The translations under genes and the position numbers were made by a program. 41,620 nt of DNA from Deltaproteobacteria bacterium (GTDB lineage: Bacteria; Desulfobacterota; WTBG01; CAIYCZ01; CAIRTM01), in NCBI GenBank assembly GCA_024276465.1, contig JAJRXD010000131.1:1-41620 (forward strand). Reading direction: 5' to 3'. Below the pieces are notes generated by a model. That model ran no database searches and was not told where the DNA came from. It saw nothing but the letters and a program-made list of their open reading frames with translations. Shown piece by piece: positions 11,408 to 28,233 of this stretch (position 1 is its first letter; each line of letters starts with the position of its first letter).

Positions 11408-12721
11408 ATGAGGCGTATAATAATTATATGCGCTTATGCGCTGAGTGCTTTTTCAGTTTACAACTGTGCCATGGCACAGGACAGCTGTATTACTTCTGAG
11501 TGCCACGTGGGAATCAACACAGCCGAATTTGTCCATGGACCCCTGGCTGCCGGTGAATGTACGGTCTGTCATGTGAGGGGTGAAAACGATAATCCGCCTG
11601 ACAACCATGATCTTTCTGATTACAAGGAGGGAGAGGGCCTTTGTCTTGACTGCCATGAAAAAATTGCTATCTTTATGGAAGACAAAAAAAAACATGGCCC
11701 GATTGAAGATGGGGAGTGTATAGTATGTCATGATCCACACCAGGCTGATAATAGATTTCTGCTTATTGAAAACTTTCTTCCGGACCTTTGTTTTAACTGT
11801 CATGAAGACAACATAACAACCAACAAATATGTTCACGGTCCTGTTGCTGCCGGGGACTGCATCGTCTGTCACAATCCACATGCCTCAAAAAATGATTTTC
11901 TTTTAGTCAGTGACCGCCTTACCATCTGTTTTAACTGCCACGGAGAGAAAAAAGATGATCTAAAAAAGAAATGGGTTCATCAGCCTATGAAAGAGTCGTG
12001 CGAAAAATGTCATGAACCCCATGGATCCCAATTTGCCATGCACCTGAAAGACGACAAAGCCACTCTGTGCAGGGATTGTCATGAAAAATTTGTTGATAAG
12101 CTCAACCATTCTAAATCAAAACATTCTGCTATAGCGAAAAACGGCTGCCTGGGCTGCCATTTTCCCCATGCCTCTGATTATGACAATGGGCTTAGAGAAG
12201 AAAAATCTCACCTGTGTCTTACATGCCATGAGAAGATGGAAAAAAAGATTCTTTCAAGCAAGTATCTTCACGGACCTGTTAAAGAGGGAGACTGTACCGC
12301 ATGCCACGATCCTCACGCAACAAACTATGCCGACCACCTGGTCAGTTTTTTCCCTGATGAATTTTATTTTTCATATGATGTTAAAAACTATGCAATGTGC
12401 TTTGGATGCCATAATAATGAAATAGCAACTGAACAGTTTACGGAAACTCTTACAGATTTTCGCAACGGGGACTTAAACCTTCACTTCCTGCATGTTAACA
12501 GGGAAAAGGGCAGGAGCTGCAAGGCCTGCCATGAGGTTCACGCAGGTAACCAGCCAAAGCATATTGCCCGTGAGGTTCCATATGGTAAAAGCAACTGGAT
12601 GCTTCCGATTAAATTCACAAAAACAGAGACAGGGGGCACCTGTGTAGTCGGGTGCCATAAGCCAAAGTCTTATGACCGTGAAAAACCGGTAAAATATGAT
12701 GATAAGAAATCATCAAAATGA
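11408..12721 (+). CDS. Secreted multiheme cytochrome c, 13 CXXCH plus CX4CH and CX3CH
   Basis: About 437 aa from ATG 11408, which has AAGGAG 11 bases upstream; in-frame ATGs at 11387 and 11363 are alternatives. Signal peptide ends near AMAQ. The first heme site is unusual: C-ITSE-CH (CX4CH). Thirteen CXXCH follow (CTVCH, CLDCH, CIVCH, CFNCH, CIVCH, CFNCH, CEKCH, CRDCH, CLGCH, CLTCH, CTACH, CFGCH, CKACH), and the last site is C-VVG-CH (CX3CH). Alternate motifs carry DPH, NPH, EPHG, FPH or EVH, the pattern of a repeated paired-heme module with HGPxxxGxCxxCH. It is the first half of a duplicated pair with 14083 and is followed by a Cys-less redoxin-TPR gene. Probably a periplasmic or surface electron carrier. 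Confidence 0.88.
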   Translation: MRRIIIICAYALSAFSVYNCAMAQDSCITSECHVGINTAEFVHGPLAAGECTVCHVRGENDNPPDNHDLSDYKEGEGLCLDCHEKIAIFMEDKKKHGPIEDGECIVCHDPHQADNRFLLIENFLPDLCFNCHEDNITTNKYVHGPVAAGDCIVCHNPHASKNDFLLVSDRLTICFNCHGEKKDDLKKKWVHQPMKESCEKCHEPHGSQFAMHLKDDKATLCRDCHEKFVDKLNHSKSKHSAIAKNGCLGCHFPHASDYDNGLREEKSHLCLTCHEKMEKKILSSKYLHGPVKEGDCTACHDPHATNYADHLVSFFPDEFYFSYDVKNYAMCFGCHNNEIATEQFTETLTDFRNGDLNLHFLHVNREKGRSCKACHEVHAGNQPKHIAREVPYGKSNWMLPIKFTKTETGGTCVVGCHKPKSYDREKPVKYDDKKSSK

Positions 12722-13047
12722 TTATATTGCAAACTGTTAAATGTGTAATGAATACATTAAAATAGTGCCTGACCGAAAAGCCCATTAATTACACTTTTTC
12801 TGTCATTGCGAGGGAGGTATGACCGAAGCAATCTCCTGGAAACAAAGGGATTGCTTCCCCGATTTTATCGGGGTTCCTCACTCCTCGCAATGACAACTCG
12901 GAATCAGGACTTTTCATTCAGCCACTAAATAATTAATTTCCGGGTTTTTCCTCACTACGCGGCATGTGTGGCAGGCGATGTGAGGAATTACCTGTGATGT
13001 GAAATGTCAGTCCAAATGGATTTTAAGATCAGAGGAGAAAGCAGTAA
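12722..13047. other. Intergenic region with palindromic repeat and leader hairpin
   Basis: No gene. It contains the GTCATTGCGAG-type repeat (12801-12895), then a hairpin ttcctcac 12948-12955 with gtgaggaa 12980-12987 in the leader of the redoxin-TPR gene. An AGAGGAGAAAG ribosome-binding region precedes ATG 13048. Confidence 0.6.
12801..12895. repeat. GTCATTGCGAG-type dispersed palindromic repeat
   Basis: tgtcattgcgagg (12801-12813) and cctcgcaatgaca (12883-12895) are perfect 13-bp inverted repeats. Inside them gaagcaatc (12825-12833) pairs with gattgcttc (12849-12857). This nested layout is typical of a repeat family common in many environmental bacteria. A degraded relative lies near 91-160. 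Confidence 0.85.
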
Positions 13048-14052
13048 ATGAAAAAAAATATCCTGGCAATTGTGTGCTTATTTTTGGTTGTATTCATGTT
13101 CTGTACAGACGTGATGGGGTTCAGGCAACTGAGGGAGGGTGAAACCGTAAAGGACTTCAGCCTTCAGGATCTGGAAGGAAAGACCTATTCCATCTCAGGT
13201 TTAAAAGGCAAAACAATAGTTATACTGTACTGGCGTGTAGGTCAGGAGCGTTCACATCAGGCACTGAAAGAACTGAAGTCTCTACACAAAAAACTTTCCG
13301 GTAAGCCTTTGCAAATTCTGGCTGTTACAAAAGATGCTGATAAACTTGCTGAAATCAAAGCACTTAAGCAGTCCCTTGAACTCCCGTTTCCTGTTTTGCT
13401 TGACAGTGATGCCAAAGTGTATTCCGACCTTGGAGTACTTGTCTTTCCTTCCACAGCCCTGATTGACAGCAAAGGGGTTTTCCGTTTCTACTATGGAGGT
13501 TTTCGATCTGATTACCAGGAGGACCTTTTTGGACAGGTCAGACTGCTTCTTGGCCTGATAACACCGGAGAAACTCAGGGCAGAGAAGGAACGTGTAACTC
13601 CTCGTCTTTCTGAAAATCAAAAAAGAGCAATAAATCACATTAAGCTTGCAAAAACATTAAGAGACAGGGGAATGGATGAAAAAGCCTTCCAGGAGGCAGA
13701 GAAGGCAGTGAAATTAGATCCTGATAATGCAGAGGGTTATATCCTTTACGGGTTCTGCCTGCTTGACATAAACAAGACAGACCAGGGGCTGGCTAATTTT
13801 CAAAAGGCACTTAAGCTTAATCCAAGATCAACAGATGCTAAAATTGGTCTGGGGACTGCTTATCGCATGAAAGGGCAAACTGAAAAAGCCCTTGAGATTC
13901 TGAAAAGCGGGCTTAGTCTCTGTCCGGATTCTGCAGTTATCCATCTGGAGCTTGGGAAGATTTATGAATCCATCGGGAAAAATGATGAGGCATTAAAGCA
14001 GTATAAAGCATCTGCTGAATGTTCTGTTAAGATGAGAAAACGAAGCTATTAA
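13048..14052 (+). CDS. Secreted redoxin-fold (TlpA/AhpC-like) plus TPR protein lacking catalytic cysteines
   Basis: 334 aa. Signal peptide about 1-24. Residues about 28-165 show a thioredoxin-like fold of the TlpA/redoxin type (VKDFSLQDLEGKTYSISGLKGKTIVILYW, then LLDSD, the cis-Pro region VFPSTALID and FYYGGF). Where TlpA has WCxxC, this reads W-RVGQERS, so no redox-active cysteine is present. Residues about 195-325 are TPR repeats (FQEAEKAVKLDPDNAEGY and two more units). It directly follows a cytochrome with CX4CH/CX3CH sites and is duplicated with it (see 15540). A dithiol role is excluded by the sequence. A scaffold or chaperone role in heme attachment or cytochrome assembly is my inference. 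Confidence 0.85.
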   Translation: MKKNILAIVCLFLVVFMFCTDVMGFRQLREGETVKDFSLQDLEGKTYSISGLKGKTIVILYWRVGQERSHQALKELKSLHKKLSGKPLQILAVTKDADKLAEIKALKQSLELPFPVLLDSDAKVYSDLGVLVFPSTALIDSKGVFRFYYGGFRSDYQEDLFGQVRLLLGLITPEKLRAEKERVTPRLSENQKRAINHIKLAKTLRDRGMDEKAFQEAEKAVKLDPDNAEGYILYGFCLLDINKTDQGLANFQKALKLNPRSTDAKIGLGTAYRMKGQTEKALEILKSGLSLCPDSAVIHLELGKIYESIGKNDEALKQYKASAECSVKMRKRSY

Positions 14053-14082
14053 ACAGCTGCAGCACAGGAGTTGAAAACGACG

Positions 14083-15501
14083 ATGCTTAGAGTGATGAGA
14101 GTGTTTGCAATCAGGGTATGTTTTTTAGTGCTTTCCGGAATTTTGTTCTCGGGTAGCCATGTCAATGCACAGGATGGCAACCCGGATATTATTTTGAGGG
14201 CAAGCTGTGTTGATGCAGAGTGTCATACCAAATTCGAAGAACCAAAATATGATCATAGCCCCATGCTTTTGAAAACGTGCAATGTATGTCATGAAACTGT
14301 TGAAAACCGTCATGCCTTCAAGCTGGTAGCCAAAGGCGGTAAACTCTGCACGTTCTGCCATAAAATGAAGCTGAAAAAATTTGTTCATGAGCCGGTAGCC
14401 AAGGGAGAGTGTCTCAAATGTCATGATTACCATGGTTCAGAGTTTCCTTTTCATCTTAAAACAGATCCAGCCAAAGGCTTATGTTTTTCATGTCATAAAA
14501 AAACTGAAAAAATTTTTAGCCATAAATATTCCCATGCCCCTGCAGCACAGGGTGCCTGTATTCTCTGTCACTATGGCCATTCTTCAGAAAGTGATAAACT
14601 TTTGATCGGTGAAGGCAATGATCTGTGTCTTTTTTGTCATAAGAAAGAATTTGAACCCTTGTTAAAGCTAAGGCATGTACATAAGCCGGTAACTGAAAAC
14701 TGTCTCAAATGTCATGATCCCCATGGCAGCGAGAACCCAATGATGATTTCCAAGGATGAGCCGGAATTCTGTTTTGACTGTCATGAAGATATAGCCTATA
14801 TTATTAAACACAGCAGCCATGTTCACGGGGCAACTACTATCGGGGAAAGCTGCTCCAACTGTCATTCTCCCCATGCCAGTGCACTTCCAAGGCTGCTTAA
14901 ACAGCCACTTTTGAACCTTTGTCTTTCCTGTCATGACAAGGAGATAAAAGATTCTGACGGAGAAGTTCTTCAAAACATTGCCAGGGTGATGGCGGAAAAT
15001 CCTTTCAGGCATGGACCGATTCAGCAAAACAACTGTGTTGCATGTCACAAACCCCATGGGTCGAATATTTTCAGGCGCCTGGTTACCTTTTTCCCTGAAG
15101 ATTTCTATGCCCCTTTTAACCTCGAGGAGTATAATCTCTGTTTTCAGTGCCACACCAAGGACACTTTTCTGCAGGAGAGGACAACAGCCCTTACCAATTT
15201 CAGGGATGGGGATTTGAATCTTCATTTTCTCCATGTTAATAAAAATAAAAAGGGAAGAACATGCAGGGCGTGTCATGAAATACATGCCAGCAAACAAAAA
15301 GCGCATGTGCGTTCATCAGTACCATACGGCAACTGGGAGTTTCCAATAGTATTTGAAGCAAGCCCTGAAGGGGGGACATGTGCTGCAGGTTGTCATGATG
15401 AAAAAAAATACAGCAGAAGATATAAAAAAATTGAACCGATACAGCCGTCTTCTCCAAAGGTGCAAAACAGACAAAACAGGAAATCTCTGGAGAAAAAGTA
15501 A
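14083..15501 (+). CDS. Secreted multiheme cytochrome c, 13 CXXCH plus CX4CH and CX3CH, paralogue of 11408
   Basis: About 472 aa from ATG 14083 (AGGAG about 12 bases upstream); a TTG at 14071 abuts that RBS and is unlikely. Signal peptide ends near VNAQ. Heme sites in order: C-VDAE-CH (CX4CH), CNVCH, CTFCH, CLKCH, CFSCH, CILCH, CLFCH, CLKCH, CFDCH, CSNCH, CLSCH, CVACH, CFQCH, CRACH and C-AAG-CH (CX3CH). Order and spacing match 11408, including the late block DLNLHFLHVN and the end GGTC-x3-CH. The C-terminal tail is basic and Gln/Asn/Lys-rich. Only 30 bases separate it from the redoxin-TPR gene before it, and the second redoxin-TPR gene follows. Probably an alternative carrier with different partner or potential. 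Confidence 0.88.
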   Translation: MLRVMRVFAIRVCFLVLSGILFSGSHVNAQDGNPDIILRASCVDAECHTKFEEPKYDHSPMLLKTCNVCHETVENRHAFKLVAKGGKLCTFCHKMKLKKFVHEPVAKGECLKCHDYHGSEFPFHLKTDPAKGLCFSCHKKTEKIFSHKYSHAPAAQGACILCHYGHSSESDKLLIGEGNDLCLFCHKKEFEPLLKLRHVHKPVTENCLKCHDPHGSENPMMISKDEPEFCFDCHEDIAYIIKHSSHVHGATTIGESCSNCHSPHASALPRLLKQPLLNLCLSCHDKEIKDSDGEVLQNIARVMAENPFRHGPIQQNNCVACHKPHGSNIFRRLVTFFPEDFYAPFNLEEYNLCFQCHTKDTFLQERTTALTNFRDGDLNLHFLHVNKNKKGRTCRACHEIHASKQKAHVRSSVPYGNWEFPIVFEASPEGGTCAAGCHDEKKYSRRYKKIEPIQPSSPKVQNRQNRKSLEKK

Positions 15502-15539
15502 CTGTGACAATAACCATGATTTTAGAAAAGGTAAAAAAC

Positions 15540-16553
15540 ATGAAACAAAATAAAATATGCTGTGGAATTCTCAGATGGCTTCTCCCCGGAATTATTTTAA
15601 CAATTGCAACCGTTAATTTTTCTCAGGCAGCTCTTGTGAACGGAACCGTAACTACCAATTTCAAATTGAAAGAGTTGACAGGCAGAGAACTTGCCTTAAA
15701 GGACTTCAGGGGAAAAATTGTTGTTCTGGTTTTCGGTGAACTTTACCAGGAGAATACCCTGAAGGCTGTTAAAGATTTACAAAAGATTTTATCCGAGAAG
15801 CGGTCTTACCGTGATGCTGTTGAGGTTCTGATCATAATCTCCAAAAACATCAAACCCGAAGAATACCAGAAATTCAAAGGCAGTTTTGAACTCACATATC
15901 CTGTTCTTCTGGACAGTGATAGGAATGTATATGCCCAGTATGAAATTATTGCTATCCCGACAACCTTCGTAGTAGGTCGTGACGGCAAAATTGCTGAAAG
16001 GTTTCCGAGCTACACTATTTCCTACTATGACCAGGTATATGTGGAATTGGGATACCTGTTGGGGGAGGTTGAAAAATCGGAACTGGAAAGCGTTTTGCAT
16101 CCCAAGGTAACACCGGCTAAAATGAACGGGAAGTCGGAAAGGCTGCTTTCTTTTGCGGAAAACCTGAAAAAAAGAGGCTTGTATGAAAATGCCCTGAATT
16201 CCTACAAAGAGGTTCTTGACAAACATCCCGATCTTAAAGAGGCCCACATTGGTATTGGCAGTATTTATTTAGAGAAAAAAGAGGCAGACATGGCAGAGTC
16301 TGAGTTTCAGAAGGTGCTTGAAAAGAATCCGAATGATCCTGAAGCACTCAAGGGTATTCTTCAGGTGCATATGCTCAGGGGAGACATTGATGAGAAGTCT
16401 GATGAACTGTTAAAACAAATTCTTGCAACAGGCTATGTTGATGAAGACATCTGCTATATGATGGGCGAGTTCTATGAGCTTAAGGGAGACATTAAGAACG
16501 CAATGAAGTATTACAAAAAGAGCTGTAAACAGCTTATGCAGCAAAGCCGGTAA
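15540..16553 (+). CDS. Secreted redoxin-fold plus TPR protein lacking catalytic cysteines, paralogue of 13048
   Basis: About 337 aa from ATG 15540, which has AAAGG about 9 bases upstream; the in-frame start at 15504 is less likely. Signal peptide ends near SQAA. The redoxin domain spans about residues 35-175 (FKLKELTGRELALKDFRG, IVVLVF-GELYQEN, LLDSDRNVY, cis-Pro region AIPTTFVVG). The site equivalent to CXXC reads GELYQE, again without cysteines. TPR units follow (NALNSYKEVLDKHPDLKEA, AESEFQKVLEKNPNDPEA and a final AMKYYKKSC). The loss of both catalytic cysteines in two diverged copies suggests it is an old, maintained feature. It closes the duplicated cytochrome/redoxin-TPR block. Confidence 0.85.
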   Translation: MKQNKICCGILRWLLPGIILTIATVNFSQAALVNGTVTTNFKLKELTGRELALKDFRGKIVVLVFGELYQENTLKAVKDLQKILSEKRSYRDAVEVLIIISKNIKPEEYQKFKGSFELTYPVLLDSDRNVYAQYEIIAIPTTFVVGRDGKIAERFPSYTISYYDQVYVELGYLLGEVEKSELESVLHPKVTPAKMNGKSERLLSFAENLKKRGLYENALNSYKEVLDKHPDLKEAHIGIGSIYLEKKEADMAESEFQKVLEKNPNDPEALKGILQVHMLRGDIDEKSDELLKQILATGYVDEDICYMMGEFYELKGDIKNAMKYYKKSCKQLMQQSR

Positions 16554-16910
16554 AAAACAGGATCTGCGACACAAGCTTTAGTTGAGGAGTAACATTATGA
16601 TCTGACAAGCAAGTAATACCTCTATAGATACATCATGAAAATCTTTTTTCTTTTGATCTACACCATTAACTGCCAAAACAGGTTGAAACATCCATATGTT
16701 TCTATTACATCAATCACTTGCTGATAATAAATCTTTTTCACCTCCCATGTTTCAGGATAATCTGTGTTCGGGGTTTAACCTTGACGACTTCGTAAATCCC
16801 GCCAAGCGGGATGGATTTGCGCTCCCTGTATCCGGAGCTTTTTACTTTGTTGCCTGTTTTTTTACTTTTCGCGACTTCATCAACCTTTGTCTGAAATACA
16901 CTGTTGTTTT
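16554..16910. other. Intergenic region with REP-like hairpin and one copy of a 26-base repeat
   Basis: No credible gene; a frame running through it is Phe/Leu-rich and lacks a start context. It holds the hairpin atcccgc-caa-gcgggat at 16796-16812, of the same type as the one at 6456-6475, and copy 1 of a 26-base repeat (16831-16856). Neither this interval nor the next gene start shows a Shine-Dalgarno sequence. Confidence 0.55.
16831..16856 (+). repeat. 26-base repeat, copy 1 (copy 2 at 17822-17847)
   Basis: tccggagctttttactttgt followed by TGCCTG here and by CGCCTG at 17822-17847; the copies agree at 25 of 26 positions. Both lie upstream of a gene start (16911 and 17863), in the same orientation. 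Possibly fragments of a dispersed repeat or a shared leader element. Confidence 0.7.
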
Positions 16911-17678
16911 ATGAAAAGGTCAATTATTTTTCTTTGCAGTATTACTGCCCTTGTTTTTCTGAAACTGTTTTTTCCAGGCACGTCAGGTGCTTTTCAAAAT
17001 GCAAATCTTAATGTTAAAGATTCCGTTGAGATGGTTCTCGTTCCAGGGGGGGTGTATCTGATGGGTTCGAACAGTGGATTCCCCGACCAGCGGCCAAAGC
17101 ATGAGGTTTACATTAATGCATTTTATATTGACACGCACGAGGTAACCAACAAACAGTACCAGAAATTTCTTAAAGAAACCGGCCATCCTAAGCCTGCATT
17201 CTGGTTTCCGGATATTGATCGTCCTGATGAGCCTGTGGTTGGGGTGAAATGGAGTGAAGCGTCTGCTTATGCCAAATGGGCTGGTAAACGCCTTCCCACT
17301 GAGGCTGAATGGGAGTATGCAGCCAGGGGAGGAACTATAGAGGGAAGATTTTACTGGGGCGATGAGCCGGACTTTAGTTATGCAAACCTTGATTCTTTTG
17401 GAATTGCTCCTGTAAAAAGCTTCAAGCCAAATGGATACGGGCTTTACGATATGATAGGAAATGTATGGGAATGGTGTTCTGACTGGTATGACAGACAGTA
17501 CTACAGCACAAGCCCCAGAGAAAATCCCCAGGGTCCCCCGGAGGGTAAAAGCAAAGTTTTAAGGGGAGGGGCATGGTACTGTCCTGAACATCTGATCAGG
17601 ATTATAAAACGTTATAACTCCAACCCGGCTGCCGTGAGTTACAGTTTTGGCTTCCGGTGTGTGAAATCAGCTGAATAA
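16911..17678 (+). CDS. Secreted SUMF1/FGE-fold protein lacking the second active-site cysteine
   Basis: 255 aa from ATG 16911; a frame start at 16887 is possible but the signal sequence begins here. No RBS is evident. After a signal peptide (about 1-27) comes the formylglycine-generating-enzyme-sulfatase domain: VPGGVYLMGSNS, YIDTHEVTNKQYQKF, WSEASAYAKWAGKRLPTEAE, GNVWEWCSDWY, VLRGGAWYC and FGFRCV. In true FGE the region after GGxW carries two cysteines spaced CxxxxC. Here only the first is present (WYC, followed by PEHLI), so formylglycine synthesis is unlikely. Such SUMF1-fold proteins also serve as ligand-binding or maturation factors. No sulfatase gene is nearby. Its place at the head of the third cytochrome block suggests an envelope assembly role (inference). 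Confidence 0.85.
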   Translation: MKRSIIFLCSITALVFLKLFFPGTSGAFQNANLNVKDSVEMVLVPGGVYLMGSNSGFPDQRPKHEVYINAFYIDTHEVTNKQYQKFLKETGHPKPAFWFPDIDRPDEPVVGVKWSEASAYAKWAGKRLPTEAEWEYAARGGTIEGRFYWGDEPDFSYANLDSFGIAPVKSFKPNGYGLYDMIGNVWEWCSDWYDRQYYSTSPRENPQGPPEGKSKVLRGGAWYCPEHLIRIIKRYNSNPAAVSYSFGFRCVKSAE

Positions 17679-18825: not shown

Positions 18826-20847
18826 ATGAAAGCCAGGTGTTTACAGAAAAAAGCGATCAATAAATTCCTTCATGCAGGAGTTTTATTCTGTTTCGGTTGT
18901 CTGTTATTTGTGTTTTTTCTGCCACCTGTTTTATCTGCTCAGATGGATCATTCAGACAAGCCCGATACTGCAAAAAAATGTGCAATCTGTCATTTTCAGT
19001 GGGTTTATGCATTTTATTCAGAACACAGAGACGGCGAGTTAATGCCAAAGCCAAAACAGGCTGCAGTGGCAACAAGGCAGATGTGTTTTTCCTGTCATGA
19101 CGGGTCAGTTGCAGATTCACGAAATAATGTCTTTAATTGCGCAGGTCATAAAGCTGGTGTCATCCCTTCAGAAAACGTTACCATACCTGTTGATTTTCCC
19201 CTTGATGATGAGCGAAAAATGCAGTGCTTTACGTGTCATACACCCCATGCTATTTCAAGCGGTTCTGGTATGGGAATCGGAGTTTTTTTAAGAGCGCCCA
19301 ATGAAAATTCCAGTTTCTGTAAAATGTGCCATAAAAACAAAACAGGTGGATTTGCGAAAGGCAACCACTCGGTTGATGTAGGATCAAAGAAGAGACCTTT
19401 GGAAATCACAAAAAACGGGGGGCGTTTCGGAACAGCTTTTGCCAATCAGGTGATATGTGAAACATGTCACCTTGCCCATGGAGGGTTAAACAACAAATTC
19501 CTTGTTCTTTCTGTTGAGGACCCCAAGACCCGGTCAGTACTCTGCGAGACCTGCCATACGGACAAACCAGGGTTAGCTAAGGACCCGGTCCTTAACAGGT
19601 TTTCACATCCCATGGATTTAACTCCCGGAAAGCCGGTCAAAATTCCAAGAAAATGGAAGGGCGGGGGAGATGTTGTGCTTGGAACAGACGGGGAGCTGGT
19701 CTGCCGGACCTGCCATACTCCCCATGGTGCTGTTGACAGTAAAACACTGCTTGCCGAGGAAAACCACAAGGACTCCCTGTGCATACAGTGTCACAGAGAT
19801 CAGAAAATGATTTCAGGTTCCAGACATGATTTAAGAGTATCCATGCCCGGGGCAGAGAACATAATGGGAGATCGTGCAGCTGATACAGGTCCCTGTTCCC
19901 CATGTCATCTTGTTCATTCCGGGTCCGCAAAGTTGATGTGGGCACGAAAGGAAGTTATAAATGAAAAACCCGGCATGTTTTGTGTCAGCTGTCATCGTTC
20001 AGGGGGGTGTTCAGAAAAAGTCATACCTGAAGATTTTTCTCATCCAATGGACATAAGTGTTGAATCAATGAATTTTTTCCGTTCCCTGATAAAAATTCGC
20101 TGTTCCACATGTCATGATTTTCATAACCCGTTCCCGTTATATGATGATCCTGTTGAGAAAGGGAAAAAACATGGTAAATTTCTCCTTCTGTCAAATGAGG
20201 GCGCTTCAGGTAAATGTATTGACTGTCATCCAAGGTATGGATTGATTAAAGGTACAGACCATGATCTTAGCATTACAGCCCCTGGTTTTAAAAATGTTTC
20301 CGGCCAGACACCTGCACAGGGTGGTATCTGCAGCCCGTGCCACGTGGCACATAATGCAAATCTTAAAAAATACCTGTGGGCAGCGCCTGTTGGCCCTAAC
20401 CTGCTGGAAGGCTGGGACAAGGCCAGCACAACCGACAGGGATATAATGATCAGGCTGTGTACAGGGTGCCATTCACCTGGTAAAATTGCAGAGACGCATG
20501 TTCCCGAGTTCGGGCTCCACCCGAGAGAGAAACTGATGCAGGGGATGCCCATGATAAGTTATGATCATCTTAAAGATGAGTTCCCGATCTTTACTGATAC
20601 AGGAGAAACAGCAGAGACAGGAAATATTGTATGCTCTTCGTGCCACAACCCCCATCAATGGGATCCACATGTTGAAGCAAAGGGTCCGGGCAGGAAGGTT
20701 GAAGGGGACGTGACCAATAGTTTTTTAAGATCAGATCTTCACCTGAAATACTGTACAGGGTGTCATGGTGAGGAGGGACTTGTTAAATTCAAATATTTTC
20801 ATGACCATATCGGCAGAGTTAAAAAAAATAATTCTTCCCATCAATAA
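18826..20847 (+). CDS. Secreted 16-heme cytochrome c, first of three paralogues
   Basis: 673 aa with a long signal peptide (about 1-38, ending LSAQ). Sixteen CXXCH: CAICH, CFSCH, CFTCH, CKMCH, CETCH, CETCH, CRTCH, CIQCH, CSPCH, CVSCH, CSTCH, CIDCH, CSPCH, CTGCH, CSSCH and CTGCH. Conserved blocks shared with 26215 and 28246 include DTAKKCAICH, LVHSGSAKLMW, RCSTCHDFHNPFPLYDD, TDHDL, SGQTPAQGG and CHNPHQWDPHVEAKGPG. Several histidines outside CXXCH (TPH, LAHG, DFH, VAH, NPH) fit bis-His coordination. It lies in a tight run with the NHL gene before it and the 14+1-heme gene after. Probably a periplasmic or outer-surface electron wire. Three copies in one locus imply specialised or dose-driven use. 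Confidence 0.88.
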   Translation: MKARCLQKKAINKFLHAGVLFCFGCLLFVFFLPPVLSAQMDHSDKPDTAKKCAICHFQWVYAFYSEHRDGELMPKPKQAAVATRQMCFSCHDGSVADSRNNVFNCAGHKAGVIPSENVTIPVDFPLDDERKMQCFTCHTPHAISSGSGMGIGVFLRAPNENSSFCKMCHKNKTGGFAKGNHSVDVGSKKRPLEITKNGGRFGTAFANQVICETCHLAHGGLNNKFLVLSVEDPKTRSVLCETCHTDKPGLAKDPVLNRFSHPMDLTPGKPVKIPRKWKGGGDVVLGTDGELVCRTCHTPHGAVDSKTLLAEENHKDSLCIQCHRDQKMISGSRHDLRVSMPGAENIMGDRAADTGPCSPCHLVHSGSAKLMWARKEVINEKPGMFCVSCHRSGGCSEKVIPEDFSHPMDISVESMNFFRSLIKIRCSTCHDFHNPFPLYDDPVEKGKKHGKFLLLSNEGASGKCIDCHPRYGLIKGTDHDLSITAPGFKNVSGQTPAQGGICSPCHVAHNANLKKYLWAAPVGPNLLEGWDKASTTDRDIMIRLCTGCHSPGKIAETHVPEFGLHPREKLMQGMPMISYDHLKDEFPIFTDTGETAETGNIVCSSCHNPHQWDPHVEAKGPGRKVEGDVTNSFLRSDLHLKYCTGCHGEEGLVKFKYFHDHIGRVKKNNSSHQ

Positions 20848-20855
20848 CAGCAACT

Positions 20856-22514
20856 ATGTGTAATCTTCAAATTAAAGTCTTTATCTTATTTCAGGTTGTT
20901 TTTTTCGTTGTCCTTTTTTTCTGTGGACAGAAAAATGGAGTTGCAGCAGGGACAGCCCGGGAAGAAATTGTAAATCCACACTGGACAGGAAAAAACTGCA
21001 TAGAATGTCACGTTGAGGATCTTCCACAATGGAAAGATGCTAAACTCAAATATGACGGCGATTCTGTAATGCTCTGCAACAGGTGCCACGGGACAGAATT
21101 TGCCAGGGCTGATATTCACCCCGTAGGTGTCAGCCTTACAAAAGAAATGAAAAAAATTTCCCCAAAAGACTGGCCTTTAAAAGACGGGCAGTTAACATGT
21201 TTAACATGTCATGATGCACGTATTCAGATGACTGATGACTTTGCAGTAAGGACAGAAAACCCCAAATTCATGAGGGGTGCTCCTTTTGAATCGCTTGCAG
21301 AGTTTTGTTTTACCTGCCATCAACAGGCAGAATATAAAAAAACAGATCCTCACAAACAGCTTGATGCAGGCGGGAGGATTATTGAAAGCAGATGTCTTTT
21401 CTGCCACTTGTCTTTTCCGGACTCTTCACAGGTTAAGGATATAACAGAAGTTTCTTTTAAAAGTGAACTCAAGTTTTATTGTGTAAATTGCCATCCTCAG
21501 GAAAAGACAGAACATCCGGCCAGGGCAGATCACATGGTCAAATTACCCGGGGCCATGAAAAAGTCCCTGTCTTCACAAATCACGGCACTGCAGGTTGATA
21601 TTCCGCTTGACGGCGACAGAATTTTCTGTGGTACGTGTCACAACCCTCATGAAAGGGGGGTAATAAAACGGAAAGAGGCACAGCATGGTTCGGGTGAGAA
21701 ATTTTTTCTCAGGCTCAGTGCTGGTTCTGAACTCTGTGTTTCCTGTCATGATGACAAACGTTTTTCCGGGACTTTAGATCAGCAGAAGCAAAAAAAAGGA
21801 CCATCCTGGAAAGCCAAGATGATTCGGTCAACCCATAAACCTATGGATGAAAATAAATGCAAAATGTGCCATGTCATTACCCCTGAAAACAGATATCAAC
21901 CTGAGCCGGTTTTTCTCTGTTTCAAGCAGGGGTGCCATAAAACCGACTTAATGGAAAAAAAATATACTCATGAAAAATCTGTAGTAGAAAACTGTTATTT
22001 ATGTCACAGGCCCCATTCATCTGTTTATAAAAGACTCCTTAAGTATCCGGAAAAAAAACTGTGTCGTGCCTGCCACCCGTTAATAAGGGATAAAAACGGA
22101 AAGGTATCAGGCTGGAAAGAAGGGAAGAAAAAAAGAGGCAGGGAAAATACAGATAATGAAACTTTCGTTAAAGCAGAAAAATTGAAAAAAGATAAAATTC
22201 ATAATGCTTTTATAATGTTTTTCAAAACGAATATTTATTCAGAGGGAAATGGATGTGACTTTTGTCACAGTCCTTACCACAGGGAAAAATTAGGGAAAAC
22301 AGATATGGAAATTTGTTCAAACTGCCATATTTTTGTCCATAAAACTCTGTCACGTGTATCTGCTGTTCCCATAAATATACACGATACCTTTGAAACTAAA
22401 ATGTGCTCTACCTGCCATGATCCACACTCTGCACAGTATAATCACCTGTTGATGCTGGACCAGGGTACTGAACGGTACCGCAGTAGTAAGCCTCCCCCAC
22501 AGTTGCAACCTTGA
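20856..22514 (+). CDS. Secreted multiheme cytochrome c, 14 CXXCH plus one CX4CH
   Basis: 552 aa, signal peptide about 1-31. Fourteen CXXCH: CIECH, CNRCH, CLTCH, CFTCH, CLFCH, CVNCH, CGTCH, CVSCH, CKMCH, CYLCH, CRACH, CDFCH, CSNCH and CSTCH. One C-FKQG-CH (CX4CH) lies between the ninth and tenth. A very basic linker (KEGKKKRGREN and neighbouring lysines, about residues 425-450) separates the last three hemes. The N-terminus differs from the 16-heme paralogues, but its VPxxIPLDxGxxFCGTCHNPHERG module is of the same kind. It starts 8 bases after the previous stop without a strong RBS, so translation is probably coupled. Probably a partner of the 16-heme protein. Confidence 0.87.
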   Translation: MCNLQIKVFILFQVVFFVVLFFCGQKNGVAAGTAREEIVNPHWTGKNCIECHVEDLPQWKDAKLKYDGDSVMLCNRCHGTEFARADIHPVGVSLTKEMKKISPKDWPLKDGQLTCLTCHDARIQMTDDFAVRTENPKFMRGAPFESLAEFCFTCHQQAEYKKTDPHKQLDAGGRIIESRCLFCHLSFPDSSQVKDITEVSFKSELKFYCVNCHPQEKTEHPARADHMVKLPGAMKKSLSSQITALQVDIPLDGDRIFCGTCHNPHERGVIKRKEAQHGSGEKFFLRLSAGSELCVSCHDDKRFSGTLDQQKQKKGPSWKAKMIRSTHKPMDENKCKMCHVITPENRYQPEPVFLCFKQGCHKTDLMEKKYTHEKSVVENCYLCHRPHSSVYKRLLKYPEKKLCRACHPLIRDKNGKVSGWKEGKKKRGRENTDNETFVKAEKLKKDKIHNAFIMFFKTNIYSEGNGCDFCHSPYHREKLGKTDMEICSNCHIFVHKTLSRVSAVPINIHDTFETKMCSTCHDPHSAQYNHLLMLDQGTERYRSSKPPPQLQP

Positions 22515-23541: not shown

Positions 23542-23931
23542 ATGTTTAAAAGGATACTGCTGATCTGTTTTTTTGTCTGCCCTGTGTTTTTAAATTTATA
23601 CTGTTCCGGGGCAATTGCCGGAGATCCTCAGAATTGCCTTTTTTGCCATAAGTACCGGAGGCTCAGGGTATATGATGAAAACGGATATCTCAACAATTAC
23701 TATGTTGATACCAACCTTTTTCACAAGTCAATTCACAGGGACGTAACCTGCATTGGCTGTCACAGCGATGTGAACAAGGTTCCGCACGGCGAGGTGGAAA
23801 AGGTTAACTGCGTCAAGGTCTGTCATCTGGACAGGTATAAGGCCATGGAAGGCAAAAATTTTTCTCACCGCGATGTTGCGGAAAACTTAACAAACAGCAT
23901 TCATGGGATCAAGCCTGATGATCCCCCGTAA
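23542..23931 (+). CDS. N-terminal fragment of a CbcL-like cytochrome bc (ends at an in-frame TAA)
   Basis: 129 aa as read, with AGGAG 9 bases before the ATG. Signal peptide about 1-27 (ending AIAG). Heme sites CLFCH, CIGCH and C-VKV-CH (CX3CH). After KPDDPP the frame meets TAA (23929-23931) and then continues in the same frame as KAALKPD-CKYCH and on into the ORF that follows, without another stop up to 25537. The two ORFs are therefore one gene of 665 codons interrupted by a single stop codon. As read, this fragment is a short secreted 3-heme protein that loses the membrane part. Confidence 0.75.
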   Translation: MFKRILLICFFVCPVFLNLYCSGAIAGDPQNCLFCHKYRRLRVYDENGYLNNYYVDTNLFHKSIHRDVTCIGCHSDVNKVPHGEVEKVNCVKVCHLDRYKAMEGKNFSHRDVAENLTNSIHGIKPDDPP

Positions 23932-23967: not shown

Positions 23968-25539
23968 TTGAATGATCTCTATTCTTTGCCGGAAGAGGTT
24001 CCGTCTGACAAAGTTTTGAAACGTTGTCATAATTGTCATACGGAAAAAGGGCTTAAAGGCATTTTTACACACATATCTCACCGGTTCAAGCACAAAACCA
24101 GCCGTTCCCCCTTAGAGATTGTAGAACTTTGTTCAAGCTGCCATGCTGATAAGGACTTTAACAATGTTATGGGATTTGAAGGGCCGAGGGCGGAAGCAGT
24201 TGAGACCTACAAGGAGACAATCCATTACCGTATTCTTCAGCTTGGCGGAGATGACACGGCAGATTGCATCAGTTGTCACGCTTCAGAGAGCATCCATGAT
24301 ATCAGGCCTGCTTCTGACCCCCAATCCACCATATATCCGGATAATCGATACAAGACCTGCCGGTCGGGAAACTGTCATCCAAATGCAGGGCCGGAAATTT
24401 CAACTATTGACAGTCATTTGAGCAAGCACAAGGACAGAGGCCCGGAGATTCATGTTGTGGAAATTTTAATGGAGGGGGTAATGTGGTTTACCCTGTTTTT
24501 TCTCTTCACGTTAATGGGCATGGAAACATATGGCCGTATCAGAAACGGGGATGCGCGTTTCTTCAGGTGGCGCAGGAAACCCCAGCCTCTGTCGCAGAGC
24601 AATCTGACTGATAAAACTGCCACGACTGGAATTCCCAATCTGCACAGATATGTGGATTTTAATCCCAAGGGTGATCATCCCCGCTATTCTATTCATATTG
24701 TAATTAACCATGCAGTAATGCTTATTTCCTTTACTCTTGCGGTTGCCACGGGGCTGCCCCTGTTTTTTCACAATGCAGCCCTTTCCCACAAAGTAATAGA
24801 TCTTATGGGAGGTATTGATGTTACACGTTTAATCCACCGTGTAAACGCAGTTATTTTTACTGTTGATTGCCTGTATCACGTTCTGGTTGTGATTTTGGGA
24901 GTAGGCCGCAGGTTAATAAACGGAACGTTTGATCTGCGCAGGACCCAGTTTCCAATGTTAAAGGATGCAAAGGATCTGTTTCAGGATCTGTGTTATTTTC
25001 TGGGTCTCAGGGAAACACGGCCTAAAATGGAAAAATTTATGTACAAGCAGAAAATACACTATCTGGCAATGATCTGGGGGTGCTCAGTGCTGGCACTCTC
25101 AGGATCCTGTCTTCTTTTCCCTGAATTTATGGTTCAGTATATTCCTTTTCCAAAAATTTCTTTCAATATTCTGCGTCTGATGCATGCAGAGGAATCAGTG
25201 CTTGCATTTATGGTTATAACCCTGTGGCACATGTACAATGTTCATATAGCTCCGGGACGCTTTCCTGTACAGTGGGCTTTCTGGAACGGTAAAATCAACA
25301 AAGATCATCAAATTGAAGAGCACTTTTTAGAATACAAGCGTCAGGTTAAGGAGGGTGTAGCTGAATCTGAAGAGGAAAAACTGTTAAAACAATCTGCTGT
25401 TTCATCCGGAACCAAGAGGGTGAAAAGATCTCCGGTTGAGGCAATTATTGTTTTTGCTGCTGTGCTTTTTATATCTGCCTGTACTACTGGTTATCTGACA
25501 TTCAAGGTGCAGTTTGAAAAGAAAAGGAGCCGCATATAG
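23968..25539 (+). CDS. CbcL-like cytochrome bc: c-heme region plus b-type cytochrome membrane domain
   Basis: 523 aa if begun at TTG 23968, but that start would cut off the in-frame CKYCH just upstream and leave no signal peptide, so the true gene starts at 23542. Heme sites in this part: CHNCH, CSSCH, CISCH and C-RSGN-CH (CX4CH). Six TM helices follow: about residues 163-187, 240-265, 285-312, 367-388, 407-428 and 487-510. Histidines in INHAVML, LIHRVNAV, CLYHV, MHAEESV and LWHMYNVH are candidate b-heme ligands of a prokaryotic cytochrome b561/FdnI-like domain. Known relatives by architecture are Geobacter CbcL-type proteins, which pass quinol electrons to periplasmic cytochromes. The sixth helix ends in the periplasm by my topology count, which fits fusion to the heme domain downstream. 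Confidence 0.8.
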   Translation: MNDLYSLPEEVPSDKVLKRCHNCHTEKGLKGIFTHISHRFKHKTSRSPLEIVELCSSCHADKDFNNVMGFEGPRAEAVETYKETIHYRILQLGGDDTADCISCHASESIHDIRPASDPQSTIYPDNRYKTCRSGNCHPNAGPEISTIDSHLSKHKDRGPEIHVVEILMEGVMWFTLFFLFTLMGMETYGRIRNGDARFFRWRRKPQPLSQSNLTDKTATTGIPNLHRYVDFNPKGDHPRYSIHIVINHAVMLISFTLAVATGLPLFFHNAALSHKVIDLMGGIDVTRLIHRVNAVIFTVDCLYHVLVVILGVGRRLINGTFDLRRTQFPMLKDAKDLFQDLCYFLGLRETRPKMEKFMYKQKIHYLAMIWGCSVLALSGSCLLFPEFMVQYIPFPKISFNILRLMHAEESVLAFMVITLWHMYNVHIAPGRFPVQWAFWNGKINKDHQIEEHFLEYKRQVKEGVAESEEEKLLKQSAVSSGTKRVKRSPVEAIIVFAAVLFISACTTGYLTFKVQFEKKRSRI

Positions 25540-25553
25540 AGAAAAACATAGAT

Positions 25554-26210
25554 TTGTCTTTCCAGACACTGCGCATTAAAGATCAGGAAAGAAAGCAGCT
25601 CCATAACCATTTTCACCTCACAACCGAGGATATTAATCTGGAAGCATGGGCACAGAAGTCATCATGCATTGTCTGCCATTCTCCGTATCCTCATGGGAAA
25701 AAATCAAAAGCCAAGGCACTCATGAACCTGCACACTGAATTTTTAACCTGTCACTCCTGCCATATTAAAATAAAGGAAGGCGAGAAGATAAAGTTTGGCT
25801 GGATAAATCCGACCGGATTCAAACCTGAGGGAAAACCATATGGCACGACTCTGGATCCATCCACAGGACTGTTTGCCGCGACAGATGACCACTATTCAAA
25901 ACTGACCCCATATAGAAATATTAACGGGGTCTGGCAGGCAGTCACGTCCGACGAGATGGTTGGGATTGATTTCAAGTTAGGATCTGATCAAAATTATATG
26001 GAACAGTGGCATAAACTGCACAACAAAACAGAGCTGGAACATTTTGTAAAATGTACATCCTGTCATTCACCAGGAGGAATTATCGATTTCAAGGAACTTG
26101 GGTTTGAGCCTGCCAGGATAAATCAACTGGAAAAGCTTGAAATTGGCGGTATGTTTAACAATTATGAAACTTTTTATTTCCCTGATCTTTTTGAGGATAA
26201 ATTCAAATAA
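25554..26210 (+). CDS. Triheme c-type domain, probably the detached C-terminus of the cytochrome bc gene
   Basis: 218 aa from TTG 25554. Three CXXCH: CIVCH, CHSCH and CTSCH. There is no signal peptide and no hydrophobic segment, although c-heme attachment needs export. The frame is open back to 25518 without ATG, GTG or TTG. AAGGAG (25524-25529) lies six bases before ATA 25536, which overlaps the upstream TAG. Either the start is the rare ATA or, more likely, this domain is fused to the previous gene. Adding one A to the A-run at 25517-25520 gives FEKEKEPHIEKNIDLSF with no break after the sixth TM helix. It would then be a periplasmic triheme tail of the bc protein, making 11 c-type sites in all. 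Confidence 0.75.
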   Translation: MSFQTLRIKDQERKQLHNHFHLTTEDINLEAWAQKSSCIVCHSPYPHGKKSKAKALMNLHTEFLTCHSCHIKIKEGEKIKFGWINPTGFKPEGKPYGTTLDPSTGLFAATDDHYSKLTPYRNINGVWQAVTSDEMVGIDFKLGSDQNYMEQWHKLHNKTELEHFVKCTSCHSPGGIIDFKELGFEPARINQLEKLEIGGMFNNYETFYFPDLFEDKFK

Positions 26211-26214
26211 TACA

Positions 26215-28233
26215 ATGAAAAGATCAAAAACCACAATTTATCCGGTATTGTGTCTTATCTTCCTGATGTTTCCGTGTGCAGTTTTTGCTGAAACAGATCT
26301 TTACCGGCAGGCAGATACTGCTAAAAAATGCAGTATCTGTCATTACAGGTGGATATATACCTTTTATGTTGAGCACAGGGGGACTCCCCTTGCTCCACTG
26401 GATGAAGAAAAGGTGGTTGGAAAACAGGAAATGTGTCTGTCCTGCCATGATGGCTCTGTGCGTGACTCCCGTGACAGGATCTGCAATGATCCTGGACACA
26501 GGATTGGGGCGATTCCCTCGTCACGCGTCAGTATTCCCGAAAAGTTCCCTTTGGATGAGAACGGAGCCCTGCAGTGTGTTACATGTCATACCCCTCATGC
26601 CTTAAGCAGGCAGGGGGCAGCAACAGACGAGTTGTTTCTTCGCGCCCCGAACGTTAACTCATCTTTTTGCAAGCAGTGCCATGTTACTAAGCTGGGAGGG
26701 CAGGGTAAAGGGAACCATCCGGTAGACATTTTGCCATTAAAAAATCCGGACCTTATTATTAAAGCAGGGGGCAGACTTGGCACGGATCCCAAAAATCATA
26801 TTATATGTGAAACCTGTCATATTCCACATGGCGGGGTGAATAATAAATTTCTTGTTCTGTCTGTGGAGGATCCCAAAACCCGTTCTGTGCTGTGTGAAGT
26901 ATGTCACAGCAAAAAACCGGGTCTGGCAAAGGACCAGGCTCTTAACCGCTTTTCACATCCACTTGACCTTACGCCAGGGCTGACAGTAACAATGCCGGAT
27001 AAATGGAAGAATGGGAAAAAATTAGTTCGCGGAACAGGGGGTGAACTTGTTTGCAGGACATGTCATATCCCCCACGGCGCTGTTGACAAAAAGTATCTGC
27101 TTGCTGAACATAATTACAGGGATTCCATCTGTGTTGAGTGCCACAGTGAAAAGAGAAATATTGCGGATTCCAGCCATGACCTGAGAGTTATGAAGCCGGA
27201 TGAGATGAATATACAGGGCCATCGCGTCAGTGGTTTGGGGCCCTGCTCTCCATGCCATCTGGTACATGCCGGATCATCAAAGCTTATGTGGGCAAGAGAA
27301 GCAGCCATGGACGAAAAACCCGGAGAATTTTGTTTCAGCTGTCACAGTAAAGGCAAATCAGCGGGCAAAGTAATGCCTGAGGATTTTTCCCATCCCATGG
27401 AAATTACCCTGGCTGAGGAAAAGTCATCATCTTCTCTTCCTCTGTTTGACGAGAAGGGGATTAATATGAAGGGAAAAATTCGCTGCAGCACATGCCATGA
27501 TTTCCACAATCCTTTTCCATTATATGATGACAATTCAGAGAATGGAAAAAAACACTCTAAATTTTTGCGTTTGTCTCAAAAGGGCTCTTCGGGAATCTGT
27601 GTTGACTGTCATCCGTGGCATGGCCTGGTAGAAGGTACAGACCATGATCTGAACATAACCGCCCCTGATTTTATAAACATATCCGGTCAGACACCAGCAC
27701 AGAGTGGTGTTTGCGGCCCCTGCCATGTTGCACATAATGCCGGGTTTAAGAAGTTTTTGTGGTCAGCCCCTGCAGGCCCGTCTTTACCGAAAGGCTGGAA
27801 CCCGGCATACACAACTGACAAGGATATAATGGCCAGGCTGTGTACAGGATGCCATTCGCCTGGTAAAATTGCAGAAAAGCATGTTCCCAAGTTTGGTCTC
27901 CATCCAAGGGAAAAAATGGTTGAGGGTAAGCCCCTGTTAGCTCTTGAAATACATAAGGATGAATTTCCAACTTTTACTGATACCGGGGAGATAGCAGATA
28001 ACGGGAATATTGTCTGCTCCACATGTCATAATCCCCATCAATGGGATCCAGATGTTGAAGCAAAAGGCCCTGGAGAGATAATAGAAGGGGATTCCGGCAA
28101 CAGTTTTTTAAGAGCTGATCTTCACTCTGTATTCTGCACAGGGTGCCATGGAATAGAGGGGCTTATTAAATTTACATATTTTCACCGCAGTATTGGAAGG
28201 TTAAAGAAGGATGCCCCGTTTACTGTCAAATAA
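26215..28233 (+). CDS. Secreted 16-heme cytochrome c, second paralogue
   Basis: 672 aa from ATG 26215, five bases after the previous stop; a longer frame from 26137 overlaps the upstream gene and is unlikely. Signal peptide about 1-25 (ending VFAE). Sixteen CXXCH: CSICH, CLSCH, CVTCH, CKQCH, CETCH, CEVCH, CRTCH, CVECH, CSPCH, CFSCH, CSTCH, CVDCH, CGPCH, CTGCH, CSTCH and CTGCH. It matches 18826 across its length (LVLSVEDPKTRSVLCE, NRFSHPxDLTPG, GPCSPCHLVHAGS, FHNPFPLYDD, CTGCHSPGKIAE) and is closer to it than to 28246 by eye. Following the cytochrome bc gene, it may be its direct periplasmic electron acceptor. Confidence 0.88.
   Translation: MKRSKTTIYPVLCLIFLMFPCAVFAETDLYRQADTAKKCSICHYRWIYTFYVEHRGTPLAPLDEEKVVGKQEMCLSCHDGSVRDSRDRICNDPGHRIGAIPSSRVSIPEKFPLDENGALQCVTCHTPHALSRQGAATDELFLRAPNVNSSFCKQCHVTKLGGQGKGNHPVDILPLKNPDLIIKAGGRLGTDPKNHIICETCHIPHGGVNNKFLVLSVEDPKTRSVLCEVCHSKKPGLAKDQALNRFSHPLDLTPGLTVTMPDKWKNGKKLVRGTGGELVCRTCHIPHGAVDKKYLLAEHNYRDSICVECHSEKRNIADSSHDLRVMKPDEMNIQGHRVSGLGPCSPCHLVHAGSSKLMWAREAAMDEKPGEFCFSCHSKGKSAGKVMPEDFSHPMEITLAEEKSSSSLPLFDEKGINMKGKIRCSTCHDFHNPFPLYDDNSENGKKHSKFLRLSQKGSSGICVDCHPWHGLVEGTDHDLNITAPDFINISGQTPAQSGVCGPCHVAHNAGFKKFLWSAPAGPSLPKGWNPAYTTDKDIMARLCTGCHSPGKIAEKHVPKFGLHPREKMVEGKPLLALEIHKDEFPTFTDTGEIADNGNIVCSTCHNPHQWDPDVEAKGPGEIIEGDSGNSFLRADLHSVFCTGCHGIEGLIKFTYFHRSIGRLKKDAPFTVK

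Follow-up and report, generated by a model that had tools for sequence, protein, structure and literature searches.

Cysteine-free redoxin-TPR proteins paired with 15-heme cytochromes in a deltaproteobacterial genome: candidate dedicated assembly factors

ResA, a System II protein that reduces apo-cytochrome (PMC3884852), is the closest solved structure to the proteins considered here, in which a thioredoxin-like (redoxin) domain is followed by tetratricopeptide repeats (TPR). Two of these redoxin-TPR proteins are encoded, each next to a 15-heme cytochrome, in a 41.6-kb stretch of DNA (41,620 nt; “the window” below), which is one whole contig of a Deltaproteobacteria bacterium genome bin of 4.1 Mb in 181 contigs (G000). 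The likeness to ResA is one of domain fold and sequence (the nine best solved-structure matches of profile A6 are ResA, with E about 1e-28); it extends to export and, in some cases, to a gene position beside ResB/CcsA as in res operons. Unlike ResA, redoxin-TPR proteins lack the CXXC motif, have a C-terminal TPR domain, and are tied to one cytochrome family.

Other described proteins share parts of this plan. E. coli CnoX/YbbN, a holdase, has a redox-inactive thioredoxin domain (SXXC) and TPRs (PMC8129009). The order of an N-terminal thioredoxin-like domain with a redox-inactive site and then C-terminal TPRs is the same as here, but the CnoX domain is a classical thioredoxin with one site cysteine left, and its clients are passed to GroEL, whereas the redoxin-TPR family is exported, ResA-type, and without either site cysteine. 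CnoX is not known to have an export signal. The System I proteins NrfG, CcmI, and SirG are periplasmic TPR chaperones of apo-cytochromes, some of them dedicated to one cytochrome (PMC3601427, PMC6976685); the redoxin-TPR proteins are likewise predicted to be periplasmic TPR proteins, but NrfG, CcmI, and SirG have no redoxin domain and belong to System I, whose CcmF was not found in the present genome. TlpA, CcmG, and DsbE have the Pfam AhpC-TSA and Redoxin families in common with redoxin-TPR proteins, but reduce disulfides through CXXC; with this motif lost, redoxin-TPR proteins cannot.

The four window genes lie on the + strand at 11408-16553 in the order cytochrome 1, redoxin-TPR 1, cytochrome 2, redoxin-TPR 2, the repeated arrangement that a first-pass annotation of the window had pointed out:

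11408..12721, + strand: 15-heme cytochrome 1 (Paired_CXXCH family), exported; its partner is the QERS-type redoxin-TPR
11486..11506, + strand: first heme site of cytochrome 1, CX4CH (CITSECH), by motif count
12641..12658, + strand: last heme site of cytochrome 1, CX3CH (CVVGCH), within the conserved C-terminal domain
13048..14052, + strand: redoxin-TPR 1, with signal peptide, ResA-like domain without CXXC, and four TPRs
13243..13254, + strand: QERS replacing CXXC in redoxin-TPR 1, by alignment
13447..13449, + strand: cis-Pro codon of redoxin-TPR 1, conserved in 98 of 98 family members
13612..14046, + strand: TPR region of redoxin-TPR 1, a high-confidence prediction
14071..15501, + strand: 15-heme cytochrome 2; its partner is the QENT-type redoxin-TPR
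14206..14226, + strand: first heme site of cytochrome 2, CX4CH (CVDAECH), by motif count
15379..15396, + strand: last heme site of cytochrome 2, CX3CH (CAAGCH), by motif count
15540..16553, + strand: redoxin-TPR 2, start uncertain (GTG 15504 or ATG 15540)
15747..15758, + strand: QENT replacing CXXC in redoxin-TPR 2, by alignment

By motif count, each cytochrome has one CX4CH site (the first), 13 CXXCH sites, and one CX3CH site (the last), or 15 heme sites; the 13 given in the first-pass annotation is correct and excludes the two odd sites. The doubled CXXCH repeat matches PF09699 (E = 1e-66 and 1e-61 for the two cytochromes). The sole solved-structure match of cytochrome 1 is 6r2q_A, an entry labelled cystathionine beta-synthase; the label looks wrong, and we take 6R2Q to be the MtrCAB complex. 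The reading frame of cytochrome 1 was listed from 11363, ATG 11408 being the better fit to a signal peptide; that of redoxin-TPR 2 probably starts at ATG 15540.

Both redoxin-TPR proteins match the Pfam AhpC-TSA/Redoxin and TPR families, and both are predicted to be exported, by inspection of their N-terminal signal sequences. There are no cysteines in either redoxin domain (the cysteines that the proteins do have are confined to signal peptide and TPR tail), and RVGQERS and GELYQENT align exactly onto the FWATWCPYC positions of ordinary TlpA-like proteins. The earlier description of a thioredoxin-like frame with cis-Pro and TPR tail, lacking CXXC, is borne out by Pfam, by this alignment, and by the conservation of cis-Pro. 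PF23914 (CcmH/CycH-type TPR) scores 30.3 and 32.6 bits in the two proteins, below its 42-bit cut-off. AlphaFold2, given a two-row alignment, predicted the TPR half with confidence and the redoxin half poorly; because of the latter, a fold search returned mainly TPR proteins, and is given no weight here beyond pointing to CnoX/YbbN (rank 47). A scan of genome contigs with redoxin-TPR 1 gave two TPR-level matches only, and tblastn against plasmids yielded nothing beyond partial matches of TPR or thioredoxin type.

Cysteine loss is a fixed trait of the redoxin-TPR family. The 395 genomes screened for the cytochrome domain (below) were also screened for this kind of redoxin domain. Both CXXC positions are cysteine-free in all 98 redoxin-TPR proteins collected from the phylum, and the former site is occupied by the motif (Q/S/N)x(R/K)S: position 1 is S in 49, Q in 27, and N in 12; position 3 is R in 65 and K in 20 (R/K in 85 of 98); position 4 is S in 90 of 98. 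The cis-Pro opposite the active site is kept in all. Since the search profile derives from cysteine-free members, the plain Pfam AhpC-TSA model was run as an independent control, and the long reading frames that it matches in 12 genomes were collected. Outside the redoxin-TPR set, none of these frames has a TPR tail, and every TlpA-like one keeps CXXC (one match is of peroxiredoxin type, with a different cysteine pattern); in these 12 genomes, TPR fusion and cysteine loss coincide without exception.

The pairing with this cytochrome family is real, and the pairs have been duplicated and inherited together. The cytochrome C-terminal domain was found in 65 of the 395 genomes, and some 120 loci were read with one common script. 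Of the 78 cytochromes whose domain score was good, 43 are partnered by a redoxin-TPR protein and 35 are unpartnered; two of the 43 partners were assigned by hand, both on short contigs of G014, one being a gene cut by the contig end (L055:4193-4699) and the other lying on a separate contig with gene order as in the third locus described below (L057). When mapped onto the cytochrome-domain tree, the partner label changes twice, versus 25.9 times with shuffled labels; as the tree is built on few columns and many of its forks are weak, the result is one of strong clustering and not a resolved history. No CXXC-bearing relative was seen beside the same cytochromes. Seen from the other side, a tree of the redoxin domain contains a clade of 42 (clade A; SH-aLRT 98) with almost exclusively cytochrome neighbours: the cytochrome is within 700 bases in 35 and within 6.5 kb in five, making 40 of 42 beside or near one, and the other two are on contigs cut before the cytochrome.

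Three pair types can be told apart in the class of the window, and each stays with its own cytochrome. Cytochrome 1 and its orthologues (L055 and L058) are accompanied by QERS proteins in G000, G014, and G004; cytochrome 2 and its orthologues (L055 and L059, with QQNT) by QENT/QQNT proteins in G000, G014, and G005; and a third cytochrome by QEFS/QQFS proteins in G000 and G014. Identity within a pair type is 68-75% for cytochromes and 47-58% for redoxin-TPR proteins, as against 39-43% and 20-30% between types. Over all 43 pairs, the cytochrome and redoxin-TPR distance matrices are correlated with r = 0.88 (permutation p = 0.0005), partly reflecting shared species ancestry. Partner specificity had been suspected from the duplication in the window, and the three pair types do recur in other genomes. 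Chance is excluded by the recurrence of the 4-2(x13)-3 heme pattern and the cysteine-free site in orthologues and paralogues phylum-wide.

Nor is the pairing a one-off of the window, because the same genome has a second such site. On another contig (L013, 2753-12465), a third cytochrome, whose 15 heme sites repeat this pattern, is followed, by inspection, by c554-like and c7-like cytochromes, a molybdopterin oxidoreductase, and FeS and NrfD-like proteins; two tandem redoxin-TPR genes without CXXC, of QEFS and NEQS type, come next. This order recurs in G014, split across two short contigs (L056 and L057).

As for the heme-attachment machinery, the genome has, on another contig, a ResB gene by profile match (G000:C71:4100-5410), and inspection shows a CcsA-like WWD protein in the frame that follows; the genome gave no CcmF_C match in a search that was positive in control genomes with System I. 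System II is the only heme-attachment system found in it, and the CcmG/NrfG comparison drawn in the first-pass annotation is therefore not directly applicable. ResB and/or CcsA lie beside the cytochrome in 11 of the 43 partnered loci; in G043, G324, and G209 the ResB beside the partnered cytochrome is the only one found in the genome.

Because cytochrome/redoxin-TPR pairs recur in many genomes, the redoxin-TPR protein probably serves as a dedicated helper in assembly, acting through binding and not through redox chemistry. The reading we favour, with a probability of about 0.5, is that it acts as a dedicated periplasmic assembly factor, a non-redox, chaperedoxin-like chaperone of the holdase type, for the long apo-cytochrome encoded beside it; the CnoX/YbbN holdase and the NrfG, CcmI, and SirG chaperones are the precedents that recommend it. 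Its ancestor would have been a ResA-like System II thioredoxin that lost CXXC and kept the fold and the cis-Pro groove, with the TPR tail as a second binding surface; by analogy, the cysteine-free domain, groove, and tail could together hold an extended chain. As the apo-cytochrome exits the Sec channel, the redoxin and TPR surfaces would keep it unfolded and unaggregated, and would then hand it over to CcsBA (ResB/CcsA) for attachment of the 15 hemes, while ordinary CXXC proteins would do the reduction. A dedicated non-redox chaperone had already been proposed for the window: dedication and lack of redox chemistry hold at the level of sequence (the pairing; site cysteines in 0 of 98), while the chaperone role itself, with the binding, timing, and hand-over it entails, is what we infer.

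Several observations weigh against this reading. Part of the distance correlation is owed to common ancestry, as noted. The sister group of clade A, with an SPRS-type site, consists partly of second redoxin-TPR genes of the same loci and is mostly unlinked; for redoxin-TPR genes away from such cytochromes, a heme-protein gene lies within 4 kb in just 8 of 43. That every redoxin-TPR protein serves cytochromes was accordingly rejected for the SPRS branch, and the family must be wider than cytochrome assembly. In 13 genomes, CX4CH...CX3CH cytochromes have no adjacent partner; a renewed search of these found a redoxin-TPR gene elsewhere in two and only ordinary CXXC proteins in 11, so that 11 genomes with related 15-heme cytochromes possess no redoxin-TPR gene. 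Finally, ResB/CcsA are also found beside 7 of the 35 unpartnered cytochromes (versus 11 of 43); linkage specific to partnered cytochromes was therefore rejected, the tie to System II belonging to the cytochrome and not to the partner.

The SPRS-type group (L138-L155 and L160-L177) is itself large, and its members are exported, cysteine-free, and present in several copies per genome.

The main rival to the assembly-factor reading, though we consider it rather unlikely, is that the redoxin-TPR protein is a structural subunit, staying on the mature cytochrome as a scaffold that docks it to further components of the electron-transfer chain, be it an outer-membrane barrel, NHL proteins, or a molybdenum/NrfD complex. 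Strict pairing and co-inheritance would fit this equally well, and TPRs serve generally as docking modules. The window as a whole is a large cluster in which multiheme cytochromes, NHL proteins, and an outer-membrane-barrel-like protein dominate, and the third pair sits with a complex of molybdopterin/FeS/NrfD type. However, beta-barrel and NHL neighbours also occur beside unpartnered cytochromes (L064, L100, and L115), and many partnered loci have none (L060-L062 and L081); since such neighbours do not track the partnered loci, no common complex partner is seen besides the cytochrome.

As another possibility, (S/Q/N)x(R/K)S might be a novel ligand-binding site, say for a heme propionate or another anionic group, with redoxin-TPR proteins delivering or buffering heme or another ligand. 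The conservation of R/K at position 3 and of S at position 4 is above that expected of a mere relic, but the redoxin domain shows no evident conserved axial ligand (His, Met, or Cys), and System II delivers heme via CcsBA itself (PMC3884852), which makes this quite improbable.

The first-pass annotation had proposed that the redoxin-TPR protein presents either the unusual CX4CH and CX3CH motifs or the long apo-cytochrome for heme ligation. Both motifs are present in most partnered cytochromes, and dedicated helpers are known for CXXCK and CX15CH heme sites (PMC3601427, PMC6976685). Presentation of the motifs nevertheless fares badly as a proposal, and we think it very improbable: a requirement of these sites for a partner was rejected on the 11 partner-free genomes (among the 13 without an adjacent partner) and on four partnered cytochromes (L101, L102, L116, and L127) that have 10 hemes and no CX4CH. 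Other CX4CH/CX3CH proteins of the window (20856-22514, 23542-23931, and 23968-25539) have no redoxin-TPR partner either, and CX3CH is a property of the C-terminal domain, common to partnered and unpartnered cytochromes. Related cytochromes of 19, 25, or 27 heme sites, which retain CX4CH as the first and CX3CH as the last, occur without a partner as well (L107, L108, L111, L119, L122, and L128), so length alone does not demand one.

That these are decayed TlpA-type genes without a function of their own, as the loss of the catalytic cysteines might suggest, is scarcely credible: the frames are open, the replacement motif is conserved and the cis-Pro invariant across 98 proteins and many families, and there is co-inheritance with specific cytochromes.

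Directly 3′ of the two pairs is a further member of the surrounding cluster:

16887..17678, + strand: FGE-sulfatase-domain protein

It has a counterpart after the QERS pair in L058, and another in a related cytochrome cluster (L071). The window also has three long 16-heme paralogues in one cluster (18826-20847, 26137-28233, and 28246-30282), and a DDE transposase gene (PF13701, 33068-34489) adjoins the end of the cytochrome cluster. Cytochrome 1 and redoxin-TPR 1 are separated by 326 bp without an obvious gene; this gap contains an imperfect inverted repeat at 12800-12895 (TCATTGCGAGG...CCTCGCAATGA; fold z = -9.3), which is MITE-like (miniature inverted-repeat transposable element) and present in 31 copies, full or partial, genome-wide. 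One of these (C69:28102-28178) is found close upstream of the two redoxin-TPR genes in tandem at the third locus; none was seen at the equivalent site in G014.

A literature search, with subscription papers mostly outside its reach, found no paper on cysteine-free redoxin-TPR proteins. No earlier description appears to exist of the fixed CXXC loss combined with a TPR fusion, of the motif that replaces CXXC, or of pair-wise attachment to one cytochrome family; the component parts are of known kinds. Tentatively, and at somewhat short of even odds, the exported cysteine-free ResA-TPR family may be a periplasmic counterpart of the chaperedoxins, with one branch an obligate, pair-specific cytochrome chaperone and the SPRS branch serving other exported clients.

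Long multiheme cytochromes are candidates for long-range electron transfer, and the heterologous production of large ones is a practical bottleneck. The redoxin-TPR proteins are a genetically linked candidate for a part in the little-understood loading of fifteen hemes on one chain without misfolding. Being cysteine-free, the candidate separates holding from reducing, so that roles mixed in ResA and CcmG could be tested apart, and the duplicated, pair-specific sets within one genome permit tests of specificity by swapping partners.

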